From positions 1 through 64,000 of the IMG/VR virus record IMGVR_UViG_3300046660_000385: a stretch of DNA of 64,000 nt; one strand, 5' to 3'. Position 1 is the stretch's first letter; each line of letters begins with the position of its first letter. Source of the DNA: a virus. Below, piece by piece: positions 13,248 through 62,761 of this stretch. Both the position numbers and the translations under genes were made by a program. The notes beneath the pieces are model-generated. The model was not told the DNA's origin, did not search any database, and saw only the letters and a program-made list of their open reading frames with translations.

Positions 13248-13877
13248 CTAGAGCGCTCCCTGTTGCGCCACGACTCTGCCGATGGTCTTGACGGCGGTGG
13301 CCGGCACCAGCTGCTCGGGCATGTTGGCGCGGTCGGCGCAGACCCGCACCATGCCGTCGAGCTGGATGAACAGACGGCGCACCTTGAGGCCGGCCGGGGT
13401 GTCGAGCAGGAACACCTTGTCGTCCTTCAGCTCGGTCTGCTTCAGGTCGATGAGCAGCTGGCTGCCCATGTTCATGCTGTCGTCCTCGTTGATGAATACG
13501 CGGCAGTGTTCGGGCGCGACCCCGAGCGTATGCAGGAAATCCCTGCGATAGGCAAAGCTGTTGTGGTCGTCGGCCAGACCGCCAACTTCGTGGTGATGTT
13601 GCACTGCTATGCCCCCTTCCTTATCGGTCCCTAGCAACCTTACCAAGGTATATTTTTCCGCTAATGGAACATTAACATCAATTCCCGCTGACAAGTATTC
13701 CGTTGTTGTTTTTAATACTTCTGCAATTGTTTTCAACCGATGATACGACGGCATCGCTTTAAGTTCCTCCCACCCATAGACGGCCTGCTGCGTCACTCCA
13801 CACAGATCTCCTAGTTGCACACGACTCAGTTCTAGTTCCTCACGGCGACGCTTTATGCGGTCATGGATCGTTGGCAT
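13248..13877 (-). CDS. CI-like repressor (XRE HTH plus S24 peptidase domain)
   Basis: 209 aa. HTH at about 18-40 (SRVQLGDLCGVTQQAVYGWE). The C-terminal S24/LexA-type domain has Ser 134 in EDDSM and Lys 165 in AGLKVRRLF, the likely Ser-Lys dyad for RecA-stimulated self-cleavage. Flanked by the two inverted operator copies, it is the lysogeny repressor. The first 90 or so codons (13610-13877) are clearly AT-richer than the rest and use different codons, so the DNA-binding half looks exchanged by recombination. ATG at 13875-13877. Confidence 0.9.
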   Translation of the reverse strand: MPTIHDRIKRRREELELSRVQLGDLCGVTQQAVYGWEELKAMPSYHRLKTIAEVLKTTTEYLSAGIDVNVPLAEKYTLVRLLGTDKEGGIAVQHHHEVGGLADDHNSFAYRRDFLHTLGVAPEHCRVFINEDDSMNMGSQLLIDLKQTELKDDKVFLLDTPAGLKVRRLFIQLDGMVRVCADRANMPEQLVPATAVKTIGRVVAQQGAL

Positions 13878-13958
13878 GGTGTTTCCCTTCGTTCTAGTAG
13901 TGGTGACTTCCTAACGCGCAACATAACACAGGCGGTTCTATAAGCGGCGCTTGATTCC

Positions 13959-13998
13959 TTAAAGTTTCACTTGTAATTTAAAGTGTTGCTTGTAGAAT
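13959..13998 (+). promoter_or_regulatory. rightward (pR-like) promoter/operator
   Basis: TTGTAA at 13971-13976, 16-bp spacer, TAGAAT at 13993-13998. The 27-bp element 13959-13985 is the inverted partner of 13051-13077 (23/27 identical). The expected transcript start, about 7 bases after the -10, coincides with the ATG at 14006, so the first rightward gene may be translated from a leaderless mRNA. Regulated by the divergent CI-like repressor. Confidence 0.75.
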
Positions 13999-14005
13999 CT
14001 ATCCC

Positions 14006-14578
14006 ATGAAAAAACTTTCCGCACGGATGCGCGCCGCCCGCCGGCACCGCGAACAGGAGTTTCTGGGTGTCGCCGCCAACAAGGTCGGCTCGTACAGCGC
14101 GCTGGCCCGCGAACTGGGCGTGTCGGCCCAGGCCGTGCATCAGTGGTCCCGGAAAGGCACCCCGCTCCGCCGCTGCAGCGGGATCGAGCGCGCCAGCGAG
14201 GGCGTGGTCCAGTGCGAACAGCTCAACGAGGACTACAACCTGATCGAGGTCCGGCCCTACCGCCACACCCCGCCGACCAACGCGATCTATATCTCCGGTC
14301 CGATGACCGGCAAGGTCGACCTGAACCGTCCCGCCTTCAACGCCGAAGCGGCGCGCCTGCGCAACCTGGGCTACCGCGTCGTCAACCCGGCCGAGTTCGA
14401 GCTGGCGCCGGACACCACCTGGGCCGGCTACATGCGCCACGACATCATCGCCATGCTGACCCACTGCGACACGCTGGTTGTCCTGCCGGGCTGGAACCGC
14501 TCGAAGGGCGCCCAGCTCGAGGTGTACCTGGCGCGCCAGCTGGAACTGCGCGTCGTGAAAGCCGGTGCGCTCAAATGA
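14006..14578 (+). CDS. Cro-like (YdaS-type) HTH fused to a DUF4406 deoxyribosyltransferase-like domain
   Basis: 190 aa. Residues about 25-75 are a YdaS/Cro HTH: GSYSALARELGVSAQAVHQW, IERASEGVV. Residues about 90-190 are DUF4406: AIYISGPMTGKVDLNR, VVNPAEFEL, and CDTLVVLPGWNRSKGAQLE, which resembles nucleoside 2-deoxyribosyltransferases. As the first gene after pR, the HTH should act as Cro. The fused enzyme-like half could sense or modify a nucleoside; that is speculation. The frame is continuous with no sign of frameshift, and there is no Shine-Dalgarno before the ATG. Confidence 0.82.
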   Translation: MKKLSARMRAARRHREQEFLGVAANKVGSYSALARELGVSAQAVHQWSRKGTPLRRCSGIERASEGVVQCEQLNEDYNLIEVRPYRHTPPTNAIYISGPMTGKVDLNRPAFNAEAARLRNLGYRVVNPAEFELAPDTTWAGYMRHDIIAMLTHCDTLVVLPGWNRSKGAQLEVYLARQLELRVVKAGALK

Positions 14579-22230: not shown

Positions 22231-22698
22231 ATGTACGCCTACCAGCGCACGGCGAGCGTCGAGGAAAGTTTCGGCCACTGGATGGTGCTCGTCGTGCTGT
22301 CCGACGACGGCGTCGAATCGGGCATGCAGTTCGAGTTCGACCATCTGCCGGACGAGGCTGAGATCGTGGCGGTCGCCACCGCCCGCGCCGACATGCTCAA
22401 CGCGATTGCCGCCGACGCCGAGCTGCGCGACATGCTTGCCGGCGGCGCGTTCTCGCTCAAGTACCAGGACGCCGCCGGTGTGGCCATGCGTTTTCGCGCC
22501 GCCTACCGGCCGACGTCCGGCAGCGACACCGTGCGCCTGGCGTACTGGGTCGTCCAGCGCCTGGCCAATGGCGAGCTGCTCGACGCCGACGTGAGCGCGG
22601 CGTTCGAGCTGGCCGGCGAGGACTACGACGCGCTGCTGGGCCGCCTGCAAACCCTGCACGACATGTGGCTGGCGATCCAGTATGCGGCTGGTGAGTAA
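22231..22698 (+). CDS. hypothetical protein of the fibre cluster
   Basis: 155 aa with beta-rich N-terminus (HWMVLVVLSDDGVESGM) and helical C-terminus. Stop shares one base with the next ATG. No family recognised; likely virion or assembly protein by position. Confidence 0.65.
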   Translation: MYAYQRTASVEESFGHWMVLVVLSDDGVESGMQFEFDHLPDEAEIVAVATARADMLNAIAADAELRDMLAGGAFSLKYQDAAGVAMRFRAAYRPTSGSDTVRLAYWVVQRLANGELLDADVSAAFELAGEDYDALLGRLQTLHDMWLAIQYAAGE

Positions 22699-25556
22699 TG
22701 ACCACGTTCTACCTGGACCCCGAGGGCGGCGATGATCTAGGCTCGGACTTCTCGATCTACGGGCGCGTCCCGACCCACAACGCCATCTCCAGCGTGGCGG
22801 TCGGCAAGTACGGCGGCCGTTCGATCTCGACGGCGGCCGGCACCAGCTCGTACATGAGCTTCCCGAACCAGACCGCCAACGGCATGCAGGTCGGCGCGTT
22901 CAAGTTCACCGCCGAGGCGTGGGTCTACTTCACCAGCCACTCGGCGACCACGGTCGAGCCGATCATGGGGCAGTGGAACACCGTCAGCGCCAACAACCGC
23001 GTGTGGCAGGTCGGCATGAACGCCTCGGGCCAGCTCCAGTACCAGTGGTCGACCAGTGGCACCGCTGCCGCCGGCACGCTGACCTTCAACTGGACCCCGA
23101 CTCTGAACCAGTGGTATCACATCGCGTTCGACCGCGATGGGACCACGGCCCGCCTGTACATCGACGGCGCCGTGGTGGCCTCGGTCGCCGATGCGCTGCC
23201 GTCGCTGTTCTCGACGACGACCAACATGTACATCGGTGGCGACAGCTCGGGCGCGAGGAACTTCCCCGGCTACATCCAGGACGCCCGCCTGACCAAGGGC
23301 GTGGCACGCTACGCCGGCGCGTTCACGCCGCCGGCCGAGCCGCTGCCGATTGGCTACCCGGCCGACCCGTACTGGCACTACGTGTTCGTGCTGGTGCCCG
23401 GCCGCATGGACGGCACCGGCACCACGTTCGCGCAACGCTGGCGCTCCGTCGAGAATGGCGCGACCGCCGCGCGCACCGCCGCCGGCGACACCATCCGCCT
23501 GCGCGCCACGCCGGACCCGACGCTGGTCGGCAACGCGACGTGGACACAGAATAGCTCTACCGTCACGCTGGCCTCGGCGGTGAACGCCACCATCGACACC
23601 TGTGACGCTGTCTGGACCGGCGCGACCAACGTCACGGCCACGCTCCAGACCGGCGCCAGCCGCCGGCAAGGCACCGGCTATGCGCAGATCGCCGTTGCCG
23701 CCGCCTTCACCACCGGCAAGATGGCGTACAAGGCGACCGGCCTGCTGGACCTGTCAAACTACAAGCAGGTCAGCTTCTGGTTCCAGTGCAACACCGGCTT
23801 CAACAGCGGCCAGTTTCGCCTGTGCCTGTGCAGCGACACGACCGGCGACACCGTCATCCAGTCGTTCGTCCTGCCGGACTTCTACTCGTGGAATGGCCGC
23901 TGGCTGCCGCTGGTGGTCGATACCGGCGCGGCGCTGCCGTCGAACGTGCAATCGGTCGCGCTCTATGCGGACGTGGACCCCGGCACCGCCACCTTCCAGC
24001 TCGACAACATCGTCGCCTGCAAGGCCAGCTCCGACCCGGCCTCGATTACGCACCGCTCGCTGATCGGCAAGGTCCACAACCTGTCGTGGGCGGCGACCAC
24101 CGCGTACAGCCTGAACGAGCGCCGCCGCCCGACCCAGGTGAACCGCACTGGCTTCGCCTACCAAGTCACCACGGCGGGCACCTCGGGCGCCACGGAGCCG
24201 GCCTGGCCGGCGGTATGGGGCAAGACCGTCACCGACGGCAGCGTGGTCTGGACCTGCATCGCCAACGAGCTGGAGGACAGCTGGTTCGCCATTGCCAGCA
24301 TCAACGGCGCCACGCTCACGCTCGACAATTATCAAACCGACTCGTTCACCTTGCTGCGCGGCTACCACGGCGCGACCGAGACCGTGGCGACCTACAAGCG
24401 CGAGCCGGTCAATCCGTGGCCCTTGGGGAATAACTTCTCGTCCTCCAACAACGTCAGGAAAGCGGGCAGCGCAGGCTTGCCGATCACGTACAGCGGCGGC
24501 TGGGATCGCAACGACATGAGCGCGCTCAATGCCGAGACCTGGTGGGACGGCGTCAACGGCAACTGCAACGGGATGAACATCGGCTCGTTCAAGTTCATCA
24601 ATCTCGACCATTTCAACGCGGTGCGCTATGACTCGGGCATCGCTGGCAGCTCCGGTTCCGGCACCATCAGCCACTGCCACGCCAACAACAACAGCTACGG
24701 CTTCTCGTTCGCCAGCACGCAGGGCCAGTGGGTGGTGAACGGCATCCACGCCTTCAACAATTCCAACTCGGGCGTGACCTTCGCCAACGCAGCGGCCCTG
24801 TTTGGCAAGGGCATCCAATCGTCGGGCGGCGGGGTCAACTCGCAAGGCGTCGGCGTGCAGCTCGCCAGGTACAAGACCCGCGTCAGCTTCGTGGTGGCGC
24901 GCAACAACAGCCAGACCGGCATCGGCTCGTACTCGTCGAATGTCTACGACGCCATCGTCTACAACTACGCCACCTCCAGCAACGCCCAGTCGGTGTCAAC
25001 CGGCCAGGGGGACAGCAATCCGATCTGTTTCGTCAACGGCAGCACCACCGAGGCGAACTTCGTCAACACGGCGTCGATGAACGGCGGTTATTCGGACTCG
25101 ATGGTGTACTCGCACAAGCACGGCGGCGACGCTTTCGACCACCGCGTCTACTTCGCCGAGGGCACCGTGCGCACCGACCTGACCCAGCGCCACACGGCCT
25201 CGGGCCTGGCGTGGAAGTGCAACCTGTTCTCCAACGCGCGCCACAGCGGCTACCCGGTGCGCTTCTCGCTGGGGCGCTACCTGCTTGCCGCGAACGTGGC
25301 CAAGACCTTCAAGATCTGGAGCCGGCGCGACGTGACCACCATGAAGGGCGCGCTGCTGATCTACGGCGGCTCGCTGGCCGGCATCGACGCCGACGTGCAG
25401 GTCTCGACCGACCCATCGGCCCTCAACACCTGGGAACAATCCGCAGGGCTGACCGTGACCCCGCTTGAGACCGGCGTGGTCGAACTCTGGATGCTCTGGT
25501 GGGATGGCGTCGGAACCGCCAGCAACTACTGGATTGATGACCTGACGGTGACGTAA
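22698..25556 (+). CDS. tail fibre/spike with LamG-like and beta-helix domains
   Basis: 952 aa. About 1-220: concanavalin/LamG-type lectin domain (FKFTAEAWVYF, TLNQWYHIAFDRDGTTARLYIDG). About 220-470: beta-rich linker. About 470-520: a small carbohydrate-module pattern (WAATTAYSLNERRRPTQVNR, then AGTSGATEPAWPAVWGKTV). About 600-830: Asn/Ser/Gly-rich repeats typical of a right-handed parallel beta-helix. A C-terminal beta domain closes it. No catalytic residues can be assigned. Most likely a receptor-binding or glycan-degrading adhesin. Coupled to both neighbours by one-base overlaps. Confidence 0.78.
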   Translation: MTTFYLDPEGGDDLGSDFSIYGRVPTHNAISSVAVGKYGGRSISTAAGTSSYMSFPNQTANGMQVGAFKFTAEAWVYFTSHSATTVEPIMGQWNTVSANNRVWQVGMNASGQLQYQWSTSGTAAAGTLTFNWTPTLNQWYHIAFDRDGTTARLYIDGAVVASVADALPSLFSTTTNMYIGGDSSGARNFPGYIQDARLTKGVARYAGAFTPPAEPLPIGYPADPYWHYVFVLVPGRMDGTGTTFAQRWRSVENGATAARTAAGDTIRLRATPDPTLVGNATWTQNSSTVTLASAVNATIDTCDAVWTGATNVTATLQTGASRRQGTGYAQIAVAAAFTTGKMAYKATGLLDLSNYKQVSFWFQCNTGFNSGQFRLCLCSDTTGDTVIQSFVLPDFYSWNGRWLPLVVDTGAALPSNVQSVALYADVDPGTATFQLDNIVACKASSDPASITHRSLIGKVHNLSWAATTAYSLNERRRPTQVNRTGFAYQVTTAGTSGATEPAWPAVWGKTVTDGSVVWTCIANELEDSWFAIASINGATLTLDNYQTDSFTLLRGYHGATETVATYKREPVNPWPLGNNFSSSNNVRKAGSAGLPITYSGGWDRNDMSALNAETWWDGVNGNCNGMNIGSFKFINLDHFNAVRYDSGIAGSSGSGTISHCHANNNSYGFSFASTQGQWVVNGIHAFNNSNSGVTFANAAALFGKGIQSSGGGVNSQGVGVQLARYKTRVSFVVARNNSQTGIGSYSSNVYDAIVYNYATSSNAQSVSTGQGDSNPICFVNGSTTEANFVNTASMNGGYSDSMVYSHKHGGDAFDHRVYFAEGTVRTDLTQRHTASGLAWKCNLFSNARHSGYPVRFSLGRYLLAANVAKTFKIWSRRDVTTMKGALLIYGGSLAGIDADVQVSTDPSALNTWEQSAGLTVTPLETGVVELWMLWWDGVGTASNYWIDDLTVT

Positions 25557-28258
25557 TGGCCGCGCACCGCTACTGGCGGCTGTACATCACGGCCGTCACC
25601 GGCTACCCGCACCTCGACCTGACCGAACTGATTTTGCGGACCACCGCAGGCGGCGCGCAGGCGGCCACCGGCGGGGTGCCGCTCTACTCGAACCAGTCGT
25701 CCAGCTTCGAGGCCACCAAGGCGTTCGACGGTCTCGACAACACAAGCTGGTACGTCAACCAGTCGAGCTTCCCGGTGCCGCAGTGGCTGGGCTACGACTT
25801 CGGCAGCAACGCGAGCATCGTCCAGTACGCGCTCAAGTGCTGGAACGTCAACGAGACCCCGCAGGACTTCCAGTTCCAGTGGTCGGACGATGGCGTCAAC
25901 TGGACGACCGCCGATACCCGCTCCGACCAGATCAGCTGGACCGTGAACGAGGTGCGTTCGTTCGATGTCCCGCCGGAAGCAGGAACCCTGACCACCCGCC
26001 AGGCGCAGAGTGCATCGGCCAGCGCGAGCGTCAGCGGCGCCGTCGCGCCGCCCGACCCGCTGGGGCTGGACGTGATCTACCTCGGCCAGATTTTCAACGA
26101 CCTCGACCCGTCGTCCAGCATCGTCCTCAACACCACGCTCGACGTGGTCTACCTGGCCGAGCCGATTGGACCGCGCGGCACCGGGCCGATCACCACCGAC
26201 AGCACCGGCACCAGCCGGCAGGGGCAGACCGCCAGCAGCAGCGCCGCCGTCGGCGTCGATCTGGTCGTCGCCACCTCGCAGGGCCAGACCGCGAGCGGCA
26301 GCGGCACCGTGCTCACGCCCGGCGACACGGCCGCGACCACCGGCCAGGCCCAGAGCGCGCAAGCGAGCGGCACCACCAGCAGCAGCGCAAGCAGCGCCAC
26401 CAGCCAGGCCCAGGGCGCCAGCCTCGCGGCCGGCGTGCGCTCGATCGCCACCGCCAGCACCAGCCAGGGCCAGACCAGCAACGCGCAGGCCGGGGCGTTC
26501 ACGCCGTGGCAGCTCGTCAGCAGCGCGCACATCGACAGCCGCGACGGCAGCGACTCGTTCCCGCCGTTCAATCTGGCCGCCGGCAACCACGTCGTCGTCA
26601 GCGTATGGCTCACCGGCTACACCAACCCGGTCGACGGCAGCCCCGACACCAGCACCTCGCGCGCCTGGACCCTGTCGGTGTCGGACACGGCGGGCAACAG
26701 CTATGTGGGCCTGACGCCGGTACGCGACCAGGTCGTCATCGGCTATCCGCAGTTCCCGGTCAAGTGGCAGTACCAGTTCTATTGCGTCAACGCGCTCGGC
26801 AACGCCAGCAACGTGCTGACGGTGGCGCCGGTCTCGCCGCCGCCCAACCCGTACGATGCCAGCCATCCGACGATGTTCAGCACCGTGACGGTCCTGAACA
26901 GCGGCGGCCCGGCGGCCGAGTTCGGTTCGACGGCCTCGGCGGCCTCGACCAACAACGGCGCGGGCAGCCTGTCGCTGCCGGCAATGACGGTGCAGCCCGG
27001 CGCTTCGGTGTTGCTGGACTCGGCCAGCAACGGCAGCACCACCGAAAGCGCGCCCGGCTGGACCCTGACCGACCAGTTCTTCACCTCGGTGTACGCCTAC
27101 TGGCGCGCGAACAACAGCGCCGCCACCCAGAACACCACCGTCACCGGCGACGGCGGCATCCGCCTGCTGTCGGCCATCGCGCTGCGCAATGCGCAGGGCA
27201 TCGCCAGCACCACCCGGCAGGGCCAGACCAGCAGCGCCTCGGTCGAGATCAGCCTGGACTTCGTCACCAGCTCGGCCTCGACCAGTCAGGCGCAGAGCGG
27301 TTCCGCCGTCGCCGCGACCGCTGCCGACACGACCACCGGCACGGCGCAGGCACAGCGCACGGCAGCCAGTGCGAGCGCCACCCTGCTGGTGTCAAGCAGC
27401 ACCAGCCAGGCCCAGGCCAGCAGCGCCACCGGCGACGTGTTCCAGCCCGGGGCGTCCGGCAGCGCGCAGGCGCAGACCACCGCAGCACAGGCGATTGTTG
27501 CCAGCACGGCCAGCAGCACCAGCAGCCAGGCGCAGCACCAGTCCGGCGTGGCCGAAGTCACGCTCGATGCTAACGGGGCAGGGCAGCAGGCCCAGCATGC
27601 GGCCGGCCACCTCGCAGGGGAGATCGGCAGCAGCGCCACGACCGCGAGCGCCCAGCGCGCCGCCGGCCAGCTGGCGAACGCGTTCATCGCCGACGCCGCC
27701 ACCGCGCAGGCCCAGCAGGTTGACGCCCAGGCCGGTGTGGCCAGCCCGGCAGTGGGCGCGACCAGCCAAGGCCAGCGCGCCGCCGCGGAGTCCGCCGTCG
27801 GCACCGACACCAGCGCGACCACCGAGCAGCGCCAGCGCGTGCGCGCCGCGATGCGCGGCGAAGCCGTCAACACGGTCGAGAGCGGGCAGGTGCAGCGCGC
27901 CAGCGGCGGGCTTGCCCTGTCGTCGGATGCGCCAGCGGCGACCCGTCAGGGCCAGTCCAGCAGCACTCAGGTGGGCGTGGCGGCGGACACGCAGATCGAA
28001 GCAGGACAGGCCCAGCACATCGGCGACGGCAACGTCCTGGTCGTGGCGACCGATGCCGTCGTGACCACGGCGCAGGCCGCGCAGCACGCGGCAGGGGTGC
28101 TGGAACAGTACCAGCCCCGGCCCGGCATGCTGTCGCTGGACACGAAGCGCCTGCACCCGGCACTGGCCGGCACGCCGCACCCCTGGACCTCGCTGGACGG
28201 GGCGAACCGCGTGCGCCCGGCCTTGAGCGGGCGCGTAGACTTGAGGCCTGAACGATGA
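25556..28258 (+). CDS. fibre protein with discoidin-like domain and GQxQ repeats
   Basis: 900 aa. About 1-140: F5/8 type C (discoidin-like) fold (RYWRLYITAV, AFDGLDNTSWYV, PQWLGYDFGS). About 300-560: a beta-sandwich-like domain. Between and after, about 20 degenerate units of the form T-(S/T)-x-Q-(A/G)-Q-(S/T)-(A/S) spaced mostly 18-32 residues, rich in Ala/Ser/Thr/Gln. The C-terminus ends PGMLSLDTKRLHP. Starts in the stop of the previous gene. Host recognition or a rigid spacer is likely. Confidence 0.75.
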   Translation: MAAHRYWRLYITAVTGYPHLDLTELILRTTAGGAQAATGGVPLYSNQSSSFEATKAFDGLDNTSWYVNQSSFPVPQWLGYDFGSNASIVQYALKCWNVNETPQDFQFQWSDDGVNWTTADTRSDQISWTVNEVRSFDVPPEAGTLTTRQAQSASASASVSGAVAPPDPLGLDVIYLGQIFNDLDPSSSIVLNTTLDVVYLAEPIGPRGTGPITTDSTGTSRQGQTASSSAAVGVDLVVATSQGQTASGSGTVLTPGDTAATTGQAQSAQASGTTSSSASSATSQAQGASLAAGVRSIATASTSQGQTSNAQAGAFTPWQLVSSAHIDSRDGSDSFPPFNLAAGNHVVVSVWLTGYTNPVDGSPDTSTSRAWTLSVSDTAGNSYVGLTPVRDQVVIGYPQFPVKWQYQFYCVNALGNASNVLTVAPVSPPPNPYDASHPTMFSTVTVLNSGGPAAEFGSTASAASTNNGAGSLSLPAMTVQPGASVLLDSASNGSTTESAPGWTLTDQFFTSVYAYWRANNSAATQNTTVTGDGGIRLLSAIALRNAQGIASTTRQGQTSSASVEISLDFVTSSASTSQAQSGSAVAATAADTTTGTAQAQRTAASASATLLVSSSTSQAQASSATGDVFQPGASGSAQAQTTAAQAIVASTASSTSSQAQHQSGVAEVTLDANGAGQQAQHAAGHLAGEIGSSATTASAQRAAGQLANAFIADAATAQAQQVDAQAGVASPAVGATSQGQRAAAESAVGTDTSATTEQRQRVRAAMRGEAVNTVESGQVQRASGGLALSSDAPAATRQGQSSSTQVGVAADTQIEAGQAQHIGDGNVLVVATDAVVTTAQAAQHAAGVLEQYQPRPGMLSLDTKRLHPALAGTPHPWTSLDGANRVRPALSGRVDLRPER
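25985..28120 (+). repeat. degenerate coding repeats (GQxQ units)
   Basis: About 20 tandem-to-dispersed units encoding T-x-Q-(A/G)-Q, interrupted by a non-repeat domain at about 26500-27190. The DNA is rich in CCAGGCGCAG/CCAGGGCCAG words. The same unit occurs about five times at 41885-42245 in another virion gene. Confidence 0.7.
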
Positions 28259-35013: not shown

Positions 35014-35559
35014 ATGACCACTCAATATGATTTCGCCGCTGCGGAGGTCGACTACGCGGCAGGCGGGTACAGCATCAACGCCCTGGCCACGAAGCACAGC
35101 ATCCCCGAACCCACCTTGCGGCGCTACGCCAAGAAGCAGGGCTGGATCAAAGGGACCAGTGATGTTAAGCGGGAACTTGTACGGGAAGCAATGGCTGGCG
35201 TACCTGTTGACGAACAGGTGACGAACGGAATGACGAGCGACGAACAGATTCGTCAAGTGCAGATCGACGAGGCCACCCAGGACGTGCGGGACATGACGAC
35301 CGGCTTGGCCGTGGCACGCAAGGCGATGGACAAGCTGCTGACGATGGTGGACAGCGTCGATCAGCCCAAAGATGTCAAAACGATTGTCGAGGCGAACAAA
35401 CTGGCCGTCGAGACGATCCGCAAGATCCGCGAGCTGGACGACCCGGAGGACAGCAGCACCAACGTGACCGTGGCGGTGTCGGATGGATTCGACGAGCTGC
35501 GTGCCGCGTTCAAGAAGCGCCTGCAACAGGCCGTAGGGACCAATGCTGACCCTGCCTGA
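35014..35559 (+). CDS. terS: terminase small subunit
   Basis: 181 aa. N-terminal HTH ([22 protein letters not shown]) for pac/cos DNA binding, a helical central oligomerisation region and an acidic C-terminus. It precedes and overlaps by 17 bases the large-subunit gene, as usual. Starts headful or site-specific packaging. Confidence 0.85.
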
Positions 35560-37412: not shown

Positions 37413-37440
37413 TTGACACTATGCGTCTGTGGTCTACACT
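37413..37440 (+). promoter_or_regulatory. promoter of the resolvase gene
   Basis: TTGACA (37413-37418), 16-bp spacer, TACACT (37435-37440): the best sigma70 match seen in the window. GTGGT-ACACA-ACCAC (37444-37458) follows in the leader, and GTGTC...GACAC flanks the -35. The 126-bp gap (37348-37473) may include recombination (res) subsites for the resolvase. Confidence 0.78.
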
Positions 37441-37473
37441 CTAGTGGTACACAACCACCACGGAGGGCAGGCC

Positions 37474-38046
37474 ATGAGCAAGGGACCAGGGAAGCGGATC
37501 GGGTATGTGCGGGTATCGACGACCGACCAGAACACGGAGAGGCAGCTTGACGGGATCGAGCTGGACAAGACGTTCGAGGACAAGTGCAGCGGCAGCACGA
37601 CCAACAGGCCGGCATTGAAGGCGATGCTCGACTACGTGAGGGACGGCGACACGCTCTACGTCCACTCGCTGGACCGCCTGGGCCGCAACCTGCACGACCT
37701 GCTGCTGATGGTGGCCCGCCTGACCGATGACGGCGTGACGGTCATCTTCGTCAAGCAGAACCTGACCTTCTCGGGCGAACCCAACCCGATGAACGACCTG
37801 ATGCTCGGCCTGCTCGGTGCCGTGGCGCAGTTCGAGAGGGCCATGATCCGCGAGCGCCAGGCCGAAGGGATCGCCATCGCCAAGAGGAAGGGCGTGTACA
37901 AGGGCAGGAAGCCCACGCTCGACGACGCCACGGTGCAGGAGCTGCGCCTGCGCGCTGCCGACCCCGCGATCTCCAAGGCCGCGCTGGCCAGGGAGTACGG
38001 CATCAGCCGCATGACCATGTACCGCTACCTCGACGGCCACGCCTAA
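37474..38046 (+). CDS. serine recombinase (resolvase/invertase family)
   Basis: 190 aa from the ATG at 37474 (GGAGGG upstream). Catalytic Ser 15 in GYVRVSTTDQNTERQLDG, the SLDRLGRNLHDLL motif, the long E helix (MLGLLGAVAQFERAMIRERQAEG), and a C-terminal Hin-type HTH (SKAALAREYGISRMTMYRYL). Complete, of Tn3 resolvase/Hin size. On a plasmid prophage it most likely resolves dimers; tail-gene inversion is less likely because no inverted repeats flank the fibre genes. Own promoter and terminator: an independent unit, possibly mobile. Confidence 0.92.
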   Translation: MSKGPGKRIGYVRVSTTDQNTERQLDGIELDKTFEDKCSGSTTNRPALKAMLDYVRDGDTLYVHSLDRLGRNLHDLLLMVARLTDDGVTVIFVKQNLTFSGEPNPMNDLMLGLLGAVAQFERAMIRERQAEGIAIAKRKGVYKGRKPTLDDATVQELRLRAADPAISKAALAREYGISRMTMYRYLDGHA

Positions 38047-44789: not shown

Positions 44790-47700
44790 ATGGACGACCA
44801 GACCAAACCCGCTGCCCCAACCGAGGCCCCGCCAGACTGGGTCGCGCTGGCCCGAGACGCATACTCTGCCTCGACCAACTGGTTCGATTCGTCCGTGCGC
44901 GCCCAGATCGAGGGAGACCTGCGCCAGTTCCAGGGCCAGCACCCCAGCGGCAGCAAGTACCTGGCCGACGCCAACAAGGGCCGCTCGAAACTGTTCCGGC
45001 CCAAGACCCGCACCACGATCAGGAAGAACGAGGCCGCCGCGGCCCAGGCCTTCTTCGCCTCCAACGACGTCGTGAAAGTCACGGCCCAGGACGAGGACGA
45101 TCCCGCGCAGATGGCCAGCGCGGCGGTGATGGGCGAGCTGCTGCAGCACCGGCTGACGAAATCCATCCCCTGGTTCCTCACCTTGGTCGGCGCCTACCAG
45201 GACGCCCAGACCGTGGGCGTGGTGGCGTCGTATCAATACTGGCAGTACAACGAGAAGAAGGGCATCGACCGCCCGCAGATCCGCCTGATCCCGATCGAGA
45301 ACCTGCGCTTCGACCCGGGCGCGGACTGGACCGACCCGGTCGGCACCTCGCCGTACGTGATCGAGCTGATCCCGATGTACGTCAAGGACGTCAAGGCGCG
45401 CATGCGCAATGTCGACCCCAAGACCGGCGAGGCGAAGTGGAAAACCCTGCCGGAAGCGACCATCATGGGCGCGACCAAGACCTACGGCGACACCATCCGC
45501 CTGCAGCGCGAGGCCCCGCGCCCCGATTCCAAGTACCAGACCCAGGCCAACAATAATTTCAACGTGGTGTGGGTCCACAAGAACATCGTCGAGGTCGACG
45601 AGGTCGACTACTGCTACTACACGCTCGGCTGCGAACACCTGCTGTCGGACCCGGTGCCGCTGGGCGAGGTCTATTTCCACGGCCGCCGCCCGTATGTCGT
45701 CGGGTCCGCCGTGATCGAGACCCACAAGCTGTACCCGTCGTCGGTGCCGCGCCTGACGAAAGACGTGCAGGCCGAGATCAACGAGGTCGCCAACCAGCGC
45801 ATCGACAACGTCAAGCTGGCGATGAACAAGCGCTATTTCGCGCGCCGCAACAAGCAGGTCGACCTGCGCAGCGTGACGAGGAACGTGCCCGGCTCGGTGA
45901 CGCTGGTGCAGGACATCGACGACGTCAAGGTCGTGGAGTTCAACGACGTCACCGGCTCCTCATATAAAGAGCAGGAAGTCCTGAACCTGGACTTCGACGA
46001 CGTCGCCGGCACCTTCAGCGGCTCCTCGGTGCAGTCGAACAGGAAGCTCAACGAGACCGTCGGCGGCATGCAGATGCTCGACGCCGGCGCCAACCAGGTG
46101 TCCGGCTACCAGCTGCGCACCTTCTGCGAGACCTGGGTCGAGCCGGTCCTGCGCCAGCTGGTGATGCTGGAACAGTATTACGAGACCGACGACGCGCTGC
46201 TGGCCCTGTGCAGCAAGAGCGCGCAGCTGTCCCAGCGCTTCGGCGTCGACCAGATCACGGACGACATGCTGATGAACGAGTTCACTTTGAATGTGAACGT
46301 CGGCATGGGCGCCGTCAACCCGACCGAGCAGGTGCAGCAGTTCATCCAGGGCATGACGGCGCTGGGCAACATGCTGGCCAACGAGGGCCTGGTGAACCTC
46401 GGCATGAACACCGAGGAAGTCGTCAAGGAACTGTTCGGCAAGCTGGGGTACAAGGACGGCGCGCGCTTCTTCAACTTCGACGGCAGCGACCCGCGCATCA
46501 AGCAGCTGCAGGACCAGGTGTCGCAGCTGCAGCAGCAGCTGGCGCAGAAGGTCGACCCGGCCCTCATCGCCGCGCAGATCCGCAAGATCGACGCCGAGGT
46601 GGCCAGCCTGAACGTGAAGGACCGCGTCAGCGCGGCCGACGCCGTCAAGAAGGGCAGCGAGGCGCAGTTCAGCGCGATGCAGACCGCCGAGGTCATCGCC
46701 GCCGTGCCGGGCGTGGCCCCGATCGCCGACGAGCTGATGAAGGCCGCCGGCTACCGCCCGCCGCAGCCGAGCGGGATCGACCCGAACTTCCCGCAGCCGG
46801 GCATGCCCGCCGCTGGCCTGGGGATCGAAGCCGTGAAAAACCGCCGCACCGGCATCGCCTTCCTGCCGGGCCAGGACCCGTCGACCACCGGCCAGCCGAT
46901 GCCGCCGATGCCACCCACCGCCGGGACCGGCGCCCGCGCCGGCATCGAGACCACCCGCCCGGATTCGGCGGGTCCGAGCCTGATCGCGCAGGCGGCCTAC
47001 GCCAACGGCGGCCTGGTCGGCGCGATCCCGGAGGGCCTGGACTACTACGGCCAGCAGCGCGCAGCGGCCAACCTGCTGCGCCGCGGCGGCCAGTTCATCA
47101 ACCCGGACACGATGGAGCGGGACAACCTGGCCAACTACACCGGCTGGCTTGACGACAAGGGCCTGGGCAAGAACGCGCTCAATTCCAGCCTGGTCGGCGA
47201 CCAGATGAAGGGCCTCATCACCGACGACCTGGAGACGAACAGCCTGACCCATAGCCTGATGAGCAACCTGTCGACCACCAACTTCGCCGACGGCGGCCTG
47301 GTCGACCCGAACAACCCGCTGCAGCCGCTGCAGCAGATCTGGAACGGCGCCGCCAACACGATCAACAACGGCGTGCAGCAGGCGGCGAGCCTGCCGGGCC
47401 GTGCGCTGGCCGGCTACGAGCGCCTGTCGAACGAGAACCCGAAGATCAAGCTGGCGCTCGACATGATGCCCTACACCGGCACCGTGACCTCGGCGCTGGA
47501 CGTGGCCAACGACCTGCGCAAGGGCGAGTACGGCGCCGCCGCGGGTGACGCGATCGGCCTGATCCCCGGCTACAAACTGGCCAAGGCGCCGATCCACAGC
47601 GCCGCCCAGCAGGCCATGAAATTCGTCGGCGACAACCGCGGCAAGCTCGACGCCGCGATCAACTCGATCCCCGAGTACGTCGAGAAGATCCAGCGCCAGC

Positions 47701-48035
47701 AGCAAACGCCCCCCGGCTACGCCGACGGCGGCCTGCTGCAGGGTCCGGGCACCGGCACCTCGGACACCATCCCGGCCCTGATCGACGGCGCGCAGCCGGC
47801 CCAGGTGTCGAGCGGCGAGTACGTGATCCCGGCGGCCGTCGTGCAGGTGCTGGGCCAGGACTACCTCGAGGAGCTGGTGATGCAGTTCCACACCCCGGCC
47901 GAGGGCACACCGGGCGCGCCGGCCGACATGGAGCCGATCGGCCTGCAGGGCGGCGACTTCGTCATCCCGGCCGACGTTGTTGACCAGCTGGGCCGCGACT
48001 TCTTCGACAAACTTGTGGAGCACTACAGCGAATGA
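44790..48035 (+). CDS. portal protein with long tape-measure-like C-terminal extension
   Basis: 1081 aa. About 1-640 fits a phage portal: RKNEAAAAQAFFASND, IENLRFDPGAD, IETHKLYPSSVPRL, a long crown/clip region and a coiled-coil end (DQVSQLQQQLAQKVDP). From about 640 on an extension unlike other portals appears: YANGGLVG (about 736), FADGGLVD (about 830), YADGGLL (about 976), then GTGTSDTIPALI and SGEYVIPAA/GGDFVIPADVV, motifs typical of tape-measure C-termini. The fusion seems continuous. Confidence 0.85.
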   Translation: MDDQTKPAAPTEAPPDWVALARDAYSASTNWFDSSVRAQIEGDLRQFQGQHPSGSKYLADANKGRSKLFRPKTRTTIRKNEAAAAQAFFASNDVVKVTAQDEDDPAQMASAAVMGELLQHRLTKSIPWFLTLVGAYQDAQTVGVVASYQYWQYNEKKGIDRPQIRLIPIENLRFDPGADWTDPVGTSPYVIELIPMYVKDVKARMRNVDPKTGEAKWKTLPEATIMGATKTYGDTIRLQREAPRPDSKYQTQANNNFNVVWVHKNIVEVDEVDYCYYTLGCEHLLSDPVPLGEVYFHGRRPYVVGSAVIETHKLYPSSVPRLTKDVQAEINEVANQRIDNVKLAMNKRYFARRNKQVDLRSVTRNVPGSVTLVQDIDDVKVVEFNDVTGSSYKEQEVLNLDFDDVAGTFSGSSVQSNRKLNETVGGMQMLDAGANQVSGYQLRTFCETWVEPVLRQLVMLEQYYETDDALLALCSKSAQLSQRFGVDQITDDMLMNEFTLNVNVGMGAVNPTEQVQQFIQGMTALGNMLANEGLVNLGMNTEEVVKELFGKLGYKDGARFFNFDGSDPRIKQLQDQVSQLQQQLAQKVDPALIAAQIRKIDAEVASLNVKDRVSAADAVKKGSEAQFSAMQTAEVIAAVPGVAPIADELMKAAGYRPPQPSGIDPNFPQPGMPAAGLGIEAVKNRRTGIAFLPGQDPSTTGQPMPPMPPTAGTGARAGIETTRPDSAGPSLIAQAAYANGGLVGAIPEGLDYYGQQRAAANLLRRGGQFINPDTMERDNLANYTGWLDDKGLGKNALNSSLVGDQMKGLITDDLETNSLTHSLMSNLSTTNFADGGLVDPNNPLQPLQQIWNGAANTINNGVQQAASLPGRALAGYERLSNENPKIKLALDMMPYTGTVTSALDVANDLRKGEYGAAAGDAIGLIPGYKLAKAPIHSAAQQAMKFVGDNRGKLDAAINSIPEYVEKIQRQQQTPPGYADGGLLQGPGTGTSDTIPALIDGAQPAQVSSGEYVIPAAVVQVLGQDYLEELVMQFHTPAEGTPGAPADMEPIGLQGGDFVIPADVVDQLGRDFFDKLVEHYSE

Positions 48036-50595: not shown

Positions 50596-51540
50596 ATGGC
50601 TGGTCAAGTATGGCTGACTAATTCGCTCGGCGGTTACATGTGGTCGCCGAACCTGTCGAAAGTTCTGCGCATGAGCGTGCAGCCCCTCACGAAATTCCGT
50701 CAATTCGCGGATATCAAGGACGCTGCAGTGCAAGGCAAGGGAATCGGCGAATCTTTCCACTGGAATATTTATTCCGATGTGGCAACTCAGGGCACGACCC
50801 TGACCGAGGGCACCGCGATGCCGACCACCAACTTCATCATCCAGCAAGGGACGATGACGGTGACGGAATTCGGAAATAGTGTCCCGTACACAAGCAAGCT
50901 GGATGACCTCTCTGAACAGCCGGTGAAGGAGATCATCGCCAAGGTCCTGAAGAACGACGCCAAGAAGGCGTTCGACATCGCGGCCGAGGCGCAGTTCAAC
51001 CTGACCCCGCTGCGCGTGGTCCCGACCGGCGGCACCTCGACCTCGTCGGTCACGCTGTCGACCAACGGCACCGCGGCCGCCGCCAACGGCGTTGCACTCG
51101 GCAAGAATCACGTCAAGGCAATCGTCGACGTGATGAAAGAACGCAACGTGCCGCCGTATACGGGCGATGACTACATCAGCCTGGCCCACCCGACCACGTT
51201 CCGCCAGCTCAAGAACGACCTGGAAGCCGTGCACCAGTACGTGGACGCGGGTTTCCAAATGATCTTGAACGGCGAAATCGGCAGATATGAATCGGTTCGC
51301 TTCGTCGAACAGACCAATATCGCCAAGGCGAACTGGGCCTCGGGCCTGTCCAACTGGGCGTATTTCTTCGGCAACGACACTGTCGCAGAAGGAATCGTTA
51401 TCCCGGAGGAAATGCGCGGAGCTATTCCCTCGGATTATGGCCGCTCGCGCGGAATCGCGTGGTACTACCTCGGCGGTTTCGGTATTATTCACAATCAACC
51501 GAAAAATGCGCGCATCTTCAAGTGGGATTCGGCATCCTGA
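50596..51540 (+). CDS. major capsid protein (N4-gp56 family)
   Basis: 314 aa. Recognisable order: VWLTNSLGGYMWSPNLSKVL, GKGIGESFHWNIYSD, TMTVTEFGNSVPYTSKLDDL, a long spine helix (AKVLKNDAKKAFDIAAEAQF), YISLAHPTTFRQLKNDLEAV, and GAIPSDYGRSRGIAWYYLGGFGI, as in N4-gp56-like HK97-fold capsid proteins. AAGGAG 6 bases before the ATG. Parts of the gene (50596-50780 and 51240-51540) are AT-richer than the neighbours. Confidence 0.92.
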   Translation: MAGQVWLTNSLGGYMWSPNLSKVLRMSVQPLTKFRQFADIKDAAVQGKGIGESFHWNIYSDVATQGTTLTEGTAMPTTNFIIQQGTMTVTEFGNSVPYTSKLDDLSEQPVKEIIAKVLKNDAKKAFDIAAEAQFNLTPLRVVPTGGTSTSSVTLSTNGTAAAANGVALGKNHVKAIVDVMKERNVPPYTGDDYISLAHPTTFRQLKNDLEAVHQYVDAGFQMILNGEIGRYESVRFVEQTNIAKANWASGLSNWAYFFGNDTVAEGIVIPEEMRGAIPSDYGRSRGIAWYYLGGFGIIHNQPKNARIFKWDSAS

Positions 51541-52199: not shown

Positions 52200-52400
52200 A
52201 TGGCCGACTTCGACCGCAACAAGCCGTACGCGCAGATCGTGAACGACGACGAGGGCCGCTGCTTCGAGCAGAACGGGGCCTACTTCACCGCCGACGGCAA
52301 GGCCTGGACCGCGCCCGGCGCCGAGGCCCCGGCCCCGGCCCCCAAGGCCAAGAAGGGCGCCGCCACCCAGCTCGACGCCCAGCTGCAGGAGCCAGCTTGA
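52200..52400 (+). CDS. small hypothetical virion-region protein
   Basis: 66 aa: MADFDRNKPYAQIVNDDEGR then an FEQNGAYFTADGKAW turn and an Ala/Lys/Pro-rich tail. Its stop overlaps the next TTG start. Confidence 0.63.
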   Translation: MADFDRNKPYAQIVNDDEGRCFEQNGAYFTADGKAWTAPGAEAPAPAPKAKKGAATQLDAQLQEPA

Positions 52401-53998
52401 CCTGGCGCCCGGATGACCCGACGGGCGACGAAGCCCGCAAGGTGGTCTGGGACGTCGTGCAGTACCTGCGCGGCACCGTGCTCGATCTCGGGTGCGGTCC
52501 GCGCAAGGTGCTGCCGCATGTCGTCGGCGTCGATTCCTGCGCCGACACGGCCCTGTTCGGCATCCCGATCCGCCCCGACGTCAAGGTCGACGACTGCGCC
52601 GACCTGGCCGACTTCGAGTCCGCGGCCGTGGACGCCGTGTTCTCCTCGCACCTGCTGGAACACATCGCCGACACCGGCAAAGCCCTCGCCGAATGGTGGC
52701 GCGTCCTGAAACCGGGCGGCCACCTGGTGCTGTACCTGCCGCACCGCGACCTGTACCCGAACATCGGCACCGAGGGCGCCAACCCCGACCACAAGCACGA
52801 TTTTTCTCCCGACGACGTGCTCGGCCACATCGCCAGCGTGGCCGCCGGCAGCCAGACCGGCATGGACGTGCTGGTCAACGAGACGCGCGACCAGGGCATG
52901 GAATACAGTTTCCTCCTCGTCGTCCAGAAGCTGGCCGAGGTCGACTGCCGCTCAAGCTACAAGAAGCCGCGCCCCGAGAAAACGGCGGCCGTGTTCCGCT
53001 GCGGCGGCTTCGGCGACATGATCCAGATGGCCAACATCCTGCCGCAGCTGCGCCGCGAGGGATACCACGTCACCGTCATCACCACGCCGTCCGGCCAGGA
53101 CATCGTCAAGCACGACCCGCACATCGACGACTTCGTGATCCTCGACCCGGACCTGGTGCCAAACCACGAGCTGCCGCTGTACTGGGAAGCCGTCAGCCGC
53201 CGCTACGACAAGTTCATCCAGCTGTCGGAGTCCGTCGAAGGGACCTTGCTCGCCATGCCGGGCCGCGCCAACCACATGTGGCCGCAGAGCGTGCGCCAGG
53301 TGGTGCTGAACAAGAACTACCTTGAGTGGACCAGCTTCATGTGCGAGCTGCCGTACTACTCCGAGGCCCGGTTCTACCCGGCCCCCGAAGAAGCCGGCAA
53401 GGCGCGCGGCTTCCTGACCGCGATCCAGCTGTTGCGCGCGCCGAAGGACCTGATGATCGGCGTGCCGACCCCGAAGGTGTTCACCATCATGTGGGCGCTG
53501 GCCGGCTCATCCGTCCACAAGTGGTCGCCCCACATGGATAGCGTCATCAGCCGCGTGCTGCTCGACATGCCCGAGGCGGTCGTGATCCTGACCGGCGACG
53601 AGGCCTGCCAGGTGCTCGAGTGCGGCTGGGAACTGGAACCGCGCGTGTACCGCGAATCCGGCAAGCAGACGATCCGCGAGACCCTCGCGCTGGCCCAGAA
53701 GGTGGATCTGGTGATCGGCCCGGAGACGGGCGTGCTGAACGCCGTCGCGTTCGAGGCCGACGTCGCCAAGCTCATCATGCTCTCGCACAGCTCGCGCGAG
53801 AACCTGACCAAGCACTGGGACAACACCATCACGCTCGAACCGAAAGGCACAGCTTGTTTCCCGTGCCACCGCCTGCATTATGGATCAGCATACTGCACCA
53901 CTGACGCGGCCACCGGCGCGGCCCAGTGCCAGGTCGACATCAGCGCGGCCGCGATCTTCGAGGCGATCAAGACCGTCTACGACGACTGGAAGGAGTGA
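52397..53998 (+). CDS. fused SAM methyltransferase and heptosyltransferase-like (GT9) protein
   Basis: 533 aa; TTG start at 52397-52399 (AGGAG upstream, overlapping the previous stop). About 1-170: class I methyltransferase (VLDLGCG at 28-34, FSSHLLEHIAD, WRVLKPGGHLVLYLP). About 190-533: GT9/ADP-heptose heptosyltransferase-type fold (FRCGGFGDMIQMANILPQL, VIGPETGVLNAVAFE, MLSHSSRENL). It may modify LPS, a virion glycan or nucleic acid. Such fusion within a head operon is unusual. Confidence 0.82.
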   Translation: MTWRPDDPTGDEARKVVWDVVQYLRGTVLDLGCGPRKVLPHVVGVDSCADTALFGIPIRPDVKVDDCADLADFESAAVDAVFSSHLLEHIADTGKALAEWWRVLKPGGHLVLYLPHRDLYPNIGTEGANPDHKHDFSPDDVLGHIASVAAGSQTGMDVLVNETRDQGMEYSFLLVVQKLAEVDCRSSYKKPRPEKTAAVFRCGGFGDMIQMANILPQLRREGYHVTVITTPSGQDIVKHDPHIDDFVILDPDLVPNHELPLYWEAVSRRYDKFIQLSESVEGTLLAMPGRANHMWPQSVRQVVLNKNYLEWTSFMCELPYYSEARFYPAPEEAGKARGFLTAIQLLRAPKDLMIGVPTPKVFTIMWALAGSSVHKWSPHMDSVISRVLLDMPEAVVILTGDEACQVLECGWELEPRVYRESGKQTIRETLALAQKVDLVIGPETGVLNAVAFEADVAKLIMLSHSSRENLTKHWDNTITLEPKGTACFPCHRLHYGSAYCTTDAATGAAQCQVDISAAAIFEAIKTVYDDWKE

Positions 53999-60409: not shown

Positions 60410-62761
60410 ATGAGCCTGAAAGACTTCGACCCGAGCGACCTCGACCCGGACAACCCGCCCGATCCGCCACTGCCGATCCCGCTGCCGGCGCCGATGCCGC
60501 TGGCGCCGCTGCCCACCCTGCCGCCGCCGCCGCTGCTGTCGAGCATGCCGATGTTCCCGCCACCGGCGGAAACCGGCTCGTTGGGTGGCGGCGGCCCGGC
60601 CGTGGTCGACCCGGTCGGCGTCGATCCGCACGACCCGGCGACATGGAACATCCTGGACGACGGCAACGACGTCGCCCGCATCGTCCAGAGCTTCCTCACC
60701 GCCTCCGACGACGCCCAGAGCGCCGCGTTCGAGGCGCTGTCGAACCTGTACTCGGTGATGACGGGCTTTACCCCGCTGAACCAGCCGAGCCTGGCGTCCG
60801 GCCAGCTGGCCCAGCCGACACTGGCGCCGCCCCCGCCTGACCCCGGCCCCGGCGACAACCAGTTCCCGTCGCTGCCGCCGATGCCGCCGATCGGCCGGGT
60901 CGACACCTTCGAGCCGCCGCCGCCGCCGCTGTTCGACGTCGCCGCCCCCGCCATTGCCGACCTCGAACTGCCCGACCCGATCGACGTCACGATGCCGGAC
61001 GAGCCGGTGCTGCTGGACGTGGTCGCGCCGCCGCCGCCCGACTTCGTGCTGCCGCCAAGCCCGACCCTGATCGAACTGGCGATCCCCGAGCCGCCGGCGA
61101 TCGAGCTGCCGCTGTTCGACGCCAGCCTCGGCGCCCGCCCCGAGCTGCCCGCGACCGCGCTGGTCTACCACGAGGTCGAATACAACTCGGCGCTGCTGAA
61201 CGCCGCCAACGCGCGCCTGGGCCAGCTGCTGCTGGACGAGCGTGCCACCGGCATCCTGCCGGAACACGAGCAGGCACTGTGGGAGCGGGCCGCCGCGCGC
61301 GAAGCGCAGCTGACCCGCCGCGCCGTGGGCGAGGCCCAGCGCATGCTGCGCGCCCGCGGCTTCGCCATGCCGGACGACACGCTCGCGCGCGTGGTGCAGC
61401 AGGCCCTGCACGCCGGCATGGCGCGCTCGAACGCGCTGGCGCGCGCGGTCGCGGTCGAACGCGCCAACCTGGCCCAGCAGAACCTGCGCTTTGCGATCGA
61501 GGGCACGATCTCGGCCGAGGCGCGCATGCTCGACAAGCACAACGCCGTGCAGCAGCGCGCCCTCGAAGCGGCCAAGGCCGTCATCGCCACCGAGATCCAG
61601 CTGTTCAACGCCCAGGTCAACCTGATGCGCGCCGACGTCGCCGCCTTTTCGATGAAGGCCGAGGTGTTCAAGGCCAGGCTGCAGCAGGCGCTGGCTTCTG
61701 TTGCCGTCTACCGCGCCCAGATCGAGGCCGCGATCGTGCGCGGCGAGGTCAACGGCCAGATGCTGGCGATCTACCAGGCGCAGATCAACGGCGTGCGCGT
61801 GGTCGCCGACACCTATAAAACCCAGGTCGAGGCGGCCCAGCAGATGGCCGACGCCAACAAGGCGCGCGCCGACCAGTACAAGGCCCGGATCGAGGCCTAC
61901 CAGGCGCAGGTGTCGGCCATGCAGAGCGACTACGAGCGCTACGCCGCCGCCGTGCGCGGCCAGACCGAGCGCGCATCCCTGTTCGAGAAGCAGGTCGGCG
62001 CGTTCCGCGCCCGCGTCGGCGGCTTCGAGGCGCTGGTCAAGGCCAAGACCGGCCTGATCGACCTGGCCGTCAAGGCCGAGGTCGAATTCCCGCTCGAAGA
62101 ATACCGTGCCCGCACCGACGCCTACCGCGCCAGTTCCGAGGTGGCGGTCGAGCAGGTGAGGGCGCTGGCCAGCCAGTACGGCGCGCGCGTGCGCGCGTTC
62201 GCTACCGCCGAGGGCGTGGCGATGGAGAACGCCGAGGTCGGCGTGAAGGTGGCCCAGGTCGTGGCCGAGGCCGCGATCAGCGCAGCCAGCCTCGGCGTCG
62301 AGACCGCCCGCGAGAACCTGGCCGCGACCCAGATCCGCACCCAGATGACGGAGCAGGCCGCACGCTCGGCCGCGCAGATCGCCGGCCAGATCGGCGCCGC
62401 CGCCGCCTCGATGACGACCACCCACACCATGACCAGCAATGCCAGCTCGTCCTCGACCAGCAACAGCGACACCACGTCGAGCAGCTTTGTCAACAGCACG
62501 ACCGCGGTCAACTCGACCAGCAACAACGTGAGCATGAACCACAGCGACAGCACCATTTCCGGCAACACCACGAACAAGACCGTCAGCAACGTGACCGGGC
62601 GCCACAACAACCGCGGCACCAGCAACACCTACAGCAATGCGACCAGCGTCAACTACAGCGACTCGCATTCGGTCGCAATGAGCAACACGAACAGCATGAC
62701 CAACAACTTCACGTTCGCTTCGTCGTTCGAGCGCGTCGACCGTACCGTGCACAAGGATTGA
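60410..62761 (+). CDS. long coiled-coil virion protein, paralogue A
   Basis: 783 aa. Pro-rich N-terminus (PLPIPLPAPMPLAPLPTL), about 260-610 helical coiled-coil (e.g. AYQAQVSAMQSDYERYAAA), then a Ser/Thr/Asn-rich tail (NASSSSTSNSDTTSSSFVNS). The next gene is its paralogue. Possibly an injected internal or tape-measure-like protein; no transmembrane segment. Confidence 0.73.
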   Translation: MSLKDFDPSDLDPDNPPDPPLPIPLPAPMPLAPLPTLPPPPLLSSMPMFPPPAETGSLGGGGPAVVDPVGVDPHDPATWNILDDGNDVARIVQSFLTASDDAQSAAFEALSNLYSVMTGFTPLNQPSLASGQLAQPTLAPPPPDPGPGDNQFPSLPPMPPIGRVDTFEPPPPPLFDVAAPAIADLELPDPIDVTMPDEPVLLDVVAPPPPDFVLPPSPTLIELAIPEPPAIELPLFDASLGARPELPATALVYHEVEYNSALLNAANARLGQLLLDERATGILPEHEQALWERAAAREAQLTRRAVGEAQRMLRARGFAMPDDTLARVVQQALHAGMARSNALARAVAVERANLAQQNLRFAIEGTISAEARMLDKHNAVQQRALEAAKAVIATEIQLFNAQVNLMRADVAAFSMKAEVFKARLQQALASVAVYRAQIEAAIVRGEVNGQMLAIYQAQINGVRVVADTYKTQVEAAQQMADANKARADQYKARIEAYQAQVSAMQSDYERYAAAVRGQTERASLFEKQVGAFRARVGGFEALVKAKTGLIDLAVKAEVEFPLEEYRARTDAYRASSEVAVEQVRALASQYGARVRAFATAEGVAMENAEVGVKVAQVVAEAAISAASLGVETARENLAATQIRTQMTEQAARSAAQIAGQIGAAAASMTTTHTMTSNASSSSTSNSDTTSSSFVNSTTAVNSTSNNVSMNHSDSTISGNTTNKTVSNVTGRHNNRGTSNTYSNATSVNYSDSHSVAMSNTNSMTNNFTFASSFERVDRTVHKD

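Follow-up and report, generated by a model that had tools for sequence, protein, structure and literature searches.

A C-terminally extended SU10-family portal protein in an IMG/VR phage record and its genomic linkage with a presumed ejection cassette

Little is known of how phages keep their ejection proteins at the portal until infection, and in SU10 and P22 these proteins are not resolved. The C-terminus, or barrel, of the portal protein is located on the head side in SU10 (PMC9509320), DEV (PMC10925440) and P22 (PMC8402733). In DEV, ejection proteins are found around the portal (PMC10925440), and in P22 they lie close to the barrel (PMC8402733). Portal fusions to effector domains (PBECR, 2H and InPase, e.g. 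BcepF1.124), for which injection was suggested, are also known (Iyer et al. 2017, PMC5512222). The portal protein described here resembles these in carrying an extra part but differs in that no enzymatic domain was found there; residues 666-1081 gave no Pfam match at E ≤ 1 and contained no recognisable enzymatic or toxin domain. With the SU10 portal gp6 (PF23899; 7z44) it shares the family profile, the fold over residues ~11-639, a neighbourhood with an SU10-type adaptor and, by homology, a predicted barrel on the head side. SU10 gp6, however, aligns only to its residue 661, whereas ~440 residues including two modules follow the barrel here.

The window, i.e. the whole 64-kb stretch of DNA that was analysed (64,000 nucleotides), belongs to a 117,858-bp IMG/VR record. 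Near each end of the record lies a divergent gene pair, and the two pairs (window 13251-14578 and record 111139-112460) are similar; each seems by eye to consist of an HTH-like regulator and another small gene, and a duplicated regulatory region or an assembly effect is possible. Window 22698-28258 encodes two large proteins in which Laminin_G_3 and F5/8 type C domains occur and which possibly bind receptors or glycans. The 1081-aa portal frame is real and unbroken, with a typical coding GC3 of 0.95 (Table 1). Around it lie genes for terminase, MCP and SU10 adaptor (phrog_38 at 35543, phrog_1357 at 50596 and PF24175 at 53880) and for a head-closure-like protein (Hc3). By eye, a serine recombinase (resolvase)-like ORF is situated between terminase and portal (37429-38046), and an ORF with a SAM methyltransferase-like start and a glycosyltransferase-like remainder between the capsid and adaptor genes (52397-53998).

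Table 1. Features of the extended portal gene and associated genes (window coordinates)
Feature	Position	Strand	Remarks
Portal-extension ORF	44790-48035	+	1081 aa, ATG start, no internal stop
Portal body and barrel, residues 1 to ~637	44790..46700	+	PF23899, AlphaFold2 model, Foldseek
'GIET' tail, residues ~601-735 (AQFSAMQTAEVIAAVPGVAPIADELMKAAGY..DPNFP..GIETTRPDS)	46590..46994	+	Common to P22-type portals
Variable linker, residues 736-975	46995..47714	+	ANGG (738) and ADGG (833) repeats
First module, residues ~976-1037: ADGGLLQGPGTGTSD..SGEYVIPAAVVQVLGQDYLEELVMQFHTP	47715..47900	+	Predicted strand-helix-helix, pLDDT ~80
Second module copy, residues 1054-1081: GGDFVIPADVVDQLGRDFFDKLVEHYSE	47949..48032	+	
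Next gene, 103 aa	48032..48343	+	Overlaps portal stop; apparent L029 homologue directly after its portal
phrog_10969 protein, presumed ejection cassette	60410..62761	+	Co-occurs with portal tail

By profile and structural model, residues ~10-640 are an SU10-family portal. PF23899 (SU10_portal) matched with an E-value of 2.6e-30 and 105.9 bits (cut-off 30), and several PHROG portal/connector families also matched. An AlphaFold2 model of the 1081-aa protein, built with 51 aligned sequences, gave a portal fold for the body, and its top Foldseek match was the SU10 portal 7z44 (E 5.3e-23), so that the portal-like N-terminal ~640 residues of the preliminary description were borne out. Model residues 11-639 were paired by VIA-align with SU10 residues 7-661 (Z 27.7 over 479 residues), and the barrel helix 590-636 was predicted after the crown, at a pLDDT of only ~43-48. 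Pairwise dN/dS of the body versus the window was 0.17-0.36; this and the following dN/dS values are rough because a counting method was applied to GC3-rich sequence.

Portal and extension were found in one open frame in ~25 other IMG/VR contigs (59-100% identity, close relatives), in which the fused portals are 846 to ~1100 aa long. A frameshift or stop between the two parts was sought and none was present in these contigs, which upholds the single-chain portal with a C-terminal extension and rules out separate genes or a frameshift for this clade. A MuF fusion was also rejected (no Pfam match); a scan of genome contigs gave a single weak match. The earlier remark that known portals are shorter is true for the examined relatives without the extension (~690-850 aa), which comprise more distant SU10-type relatives and the cultured phages Vibrio D279 and 1.232.O and Escherichia PTXU04 and Bas95. 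The extension is absent from the L029, L201 and L202 portals, and the portals of other relatives end near residue 640 or 726. Termination of the L029 portal (68% identity) just past the GIET motif, at window residue ~728, with the next gene directly adjoining, points to the extension as an accessory C-terminal gain or loss.

Residues 600-735 are conserved among relatives (pairwise dN/dS versus the window 0.24-0.61 for residues 586-735) and also end other portals. Consequently, the 440-residue extension of the preliminary description is present but its boundary moves, the unusual part being residues ~736-1081 (346 aa). P22-type portals with the GIET tail (PF16510; L205; F116, 8P) are similar over the last ~150 residues (40-53% identity), whereas their body is of another family without detectable BLASTP similarity and they have neither the long linker nor the second module. 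The P22-type portals L197 and L200 (PF16510) had no match by BLASTP to the body of the window portal, and were identical to the window portal at 53% over residues 601-743 and 46% over the first module (L197), and at 49% over 569-743 and 54% over the first module (L200); they thus carry one module too. In many other P22-type portals the GIET tail occurs without the module. These alignments indicate that a C-terminal tail has been exchanged between portal families lacking detectable core similarity, which is new here.

The linker (residues 736-975) is fast-evolving and probably disordered: it was predicted to be mostly so, varies in blocks gained and lost among relatives, and showed dN/dS values versus the window of mostly about 0.7-1.2 (range 0.67-1.8). 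Three repeats exist where ADGGLV motifs had been placed at about 736, 830 and 976, but only that at 833-838 has this sequence, the first being ANGGLV (738-743; AN, not AD) and the third ADGGLL (978-983). Between L022 and L026, whose DNA is ~98.9% identical, a 381-bp in-frame deletion falls between two near-identical ~20-bp repeats coding A(D/N)GGLI, which suggests that such repeats can serve as recombination seams. A match of residues 718-853 to D-alanyl-D-alanine carboxypeptidases (E ~0.3) was attributed to chance.

The motifs SGEYVIPAA and GGDFVIPADVV named in the preliminary description are present (1008-1016 and 1054-1064) and are not due to chance. Structure prediction, proposed there as a check, returned the portal fold for the body but left the extension mostly at pLDDT <50, apart from strand-helix-helix elements at 1011-1033 and 1057-1080 (pLDDT ~80); when the extension was modelled alone, the mean pLDDT was 44 and the pTM 0.22. 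Every aligned SU10-type copy with the extension retains both related modules, and pairwise dN/dS versus the window was 0.28-0.73 for residues 976-1081. The records of this phage and of 11 relatives with the extension each have the module region at a single place, within the portal. A search with the C-terminal part alone, which had also been proposed, matched the tape-measure profile phrog_3547 at E 3e-8 (whole protein, 1.7e-8), and a C-terminal family profile matched two solved tape measure chains (8zdo, E 3.3e-8; 8rk3, E 2e-3). A likeness to ribbon-helix-helix or AbrB proteins, considered from the predicted strand-helix-helix, was set aside, the sole sequence hint being PF04014 at E 0.15. 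A literature search with the motif letters returned no paper, and we know of no structure that resolves the module.

Viral contigs were scanned with a module profile, and among the best 80 of 405 confirmed matches the module was located ~100-150 aa before the C-terminus of long tape-measure-like proteins, near the extreme C-terminus of phrog_8003 virion proteins (~350-430 aa), near the N-terminus of some phrog_11341-kind proteins, and on other small proteins, including portal-adjacent ones. The module is therefore not specific to tape measures, its carriers also including proteins of the head, of the ejection cassette and of genes next to the portal in short-tailed phages. Proteins of phrog_11341 (8P_022, F116p58) carry the module in tandem, but as stand-alone genes with the module near the N-terminus, and HTVC103P gp79 has GGL repeats and a C-terminal module, but is again a stand-alone gene. 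The pelagiphages HTVC103P and HTVC104P, and by a partial match HTVC115P, encode a protein of 431 aa that has GG repeats and a single module; in HTVC103P its gene is separate and directly follows the SU10-type portal.

The tape measures JBD30 gp46 and Douge gp16 share the GPGTGTSD...GEYV module. In JBD30 the motif lies at 1020-1054 in a module that was not built, and 33 C-terminal residues were built (PMC11445458); in Douge the motifs lie at 965-1009 and 1413-1456, again in unbuilt module sequence, and residues 1658-1699 were built (PMC13033339). The window portal, unlike these, has no such segment beyond the module: the C-terminal hub-binding coiled coil of tape measures was not found, and the chain ends with the second strand-helix-helix module. 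The subset of ORFs scanned yielded the SU10 adaptor, Hc3 and a transglycosylase protein of 1108 aa; neither a long-tail gene set nor a tape measure was found among them. The term 'tape-measure-like' therefore fits insofar as the module is best known from tape measures, but not as an identity.

The presumed ejection cassette lies downstream. Two successive phrog_10969 proteins (window 60410-62761 and record 62772-65006) apparently represent a duplication; in relatives, the matches sit in longer frames (e.g. G009, G028, G029). Outside the window follow the 1108-aa SLT transglycosylase protein, also presumed to belong to the cassette (L174 5022-8345; record 65021-68344), and a 7229-aa open frame (record G000 68360-90046; L174 from 8361 through L175 to 10047) for a giant polyvalent protein that is probably ejected and that combines InPase, DUF6884, LPD1, LPD39 and strawberry-notch-type helicase domains.

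Of 50,697 phage records searched, 39 were matched by the tail query and 40 by the phrog_10969 query, with 39 in common, but these counts overstate independence because most of the cultured records so matched are close kin of Pseudomonas phage F116, thus representing few independent events, and many IMG/VR contigs are fragmentary. Among SU10-type records, extension and phrog_10969 occur together in the present record (G000) and in G001, G004-G006 and G008-G011; the extended G003 and G007 have no phrog_10969, and their contigs end within ~10 kb downstream of the portal. No phrog_10969 was found in SU10-type records without the tail, including the cultured Bas95, D279, 1.232.O and PTXU04, several of the metagenomic ones being fragments. 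All P22-type records with the tail (9/9) have phrog_10969. The major capsid protein is common to SU10-type records whether or not they have the tail, and so tracks the portal body; it was not found in the P22-type records compared. The module was on the portal in 12 of 20 tail records, all without a stand-alone phrog_11341, and the other 8/8 have phrog_11341 (counting partial matches in G030, G031 and G033; Fisher p 8e-6, relatedness ignored). In F116 and USP_25 the module is on proteins at the phrog_11341 position. As read from these genomes, the co-occurrence of tail and phrog_10969 and the mutual exclusion of portal module and phrog_11341 are new here, and they lend indirect support to a plausible link of the portal tail to ejection.

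We infer that the tail, by homology, lies inside the head and that the portal is a dodecamer. The portal C-terminus being on the head side in SU10, DEV and P22, entry of the extension into the tail, as the preliminary description had suggested, is unlikely while it is joined to the portal. The chain would instead run on past the barrel tip into the head, and each portal copy (twelve in SU10) would carry a long flexible tether and two small folded modules. Such a tail may dock or organise the cassette proteins (the phrog_10969 proteins, the transglycosylase and the giant polyvalent protein) at the portal vertex, where they would stay near the exit channel before their putative ejection. Given the head-side C-terminus, the position of ejection proteins near the portal in DEV and P22, and the linkage with the cassette, docking or organising is the best-supported reading, and we put it forward tentatively. 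Several points count against it: co-occurrence is not contact, joint inheritance of the whole block could give the linkage without direct binding, in P22 the entry of ejection proteins into procapsids does not depend on portal protein (PMC8402733), and the extension was modelled at very low confidence. Furthermore, the GIET tail and phrog_10969 are present in Y7 and Y11 with no detectable module on the portal or at the phrog_11341 position, and MW202615 has phrog_10969 with no tail detected by profile.

Alternatively, cleavage within the head may release the tail from the portal for ejection along with the cassette, one gene giving both portal and ejected peptide. This would agree with the flexible linker ahead of the module and with the module on (possibly) ejected proteins, namely tape measures, phrog_11341, which sits between phrog_10969 and the giant protein, and phrog_8003, which is encoded within a gene order like gp14-15-16; the JBD30 module also lies just ahead of residue 1066, where cleavage of the tape measure has been proposed (PMC11445458). 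We nevertheless consider cleavage unlikely, as conservation of the linker is poor, neither a protease site nor a maturation protease came to light (without a dedicated search), and the full-length fusion kept by all relatives is equally expected of an uncut tether. Comparably unlikely is a role of the modules in binding scaffold or coat, thereby helping to position portal or cassette within the procapsid, but not taking part in ejection: P22 ejection proteins are recruited by scaffold (PMC8402733) and the similar HTVC103P module protein is encoded between portal and scaffold-like gene, but the tail tracks phrog_10969 and not the capsid gene, whose relatives occur with and without it. That the extension is largely mobile passenger sequence of little function, spread by recombination at A(D/N)GGL repeats, would suit the near-neutral, block-wise variable linker, the L022/L026 deletion and the unextended L029, but is quite improbable given the constraint on C-terminal modules kept in all extended copies and a portal/phrog_11341 exclusion unexpected of a passenger.

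Docking or organising thus stays the preferred reading. A fuller scheme, in which a transferable tail moves between two families of portals, is paired with one particular ejection cassette and is itself cleaved and ejected, has a low probability; if it is true, the portal gene contributes a component of the ejection apparatus. A segment common to portal families and tied to one cassette protein is a specific lead to their contact, and a widespread unexplained module, present on tape measures, head proteins and portals, gains a setting apart from tail length.
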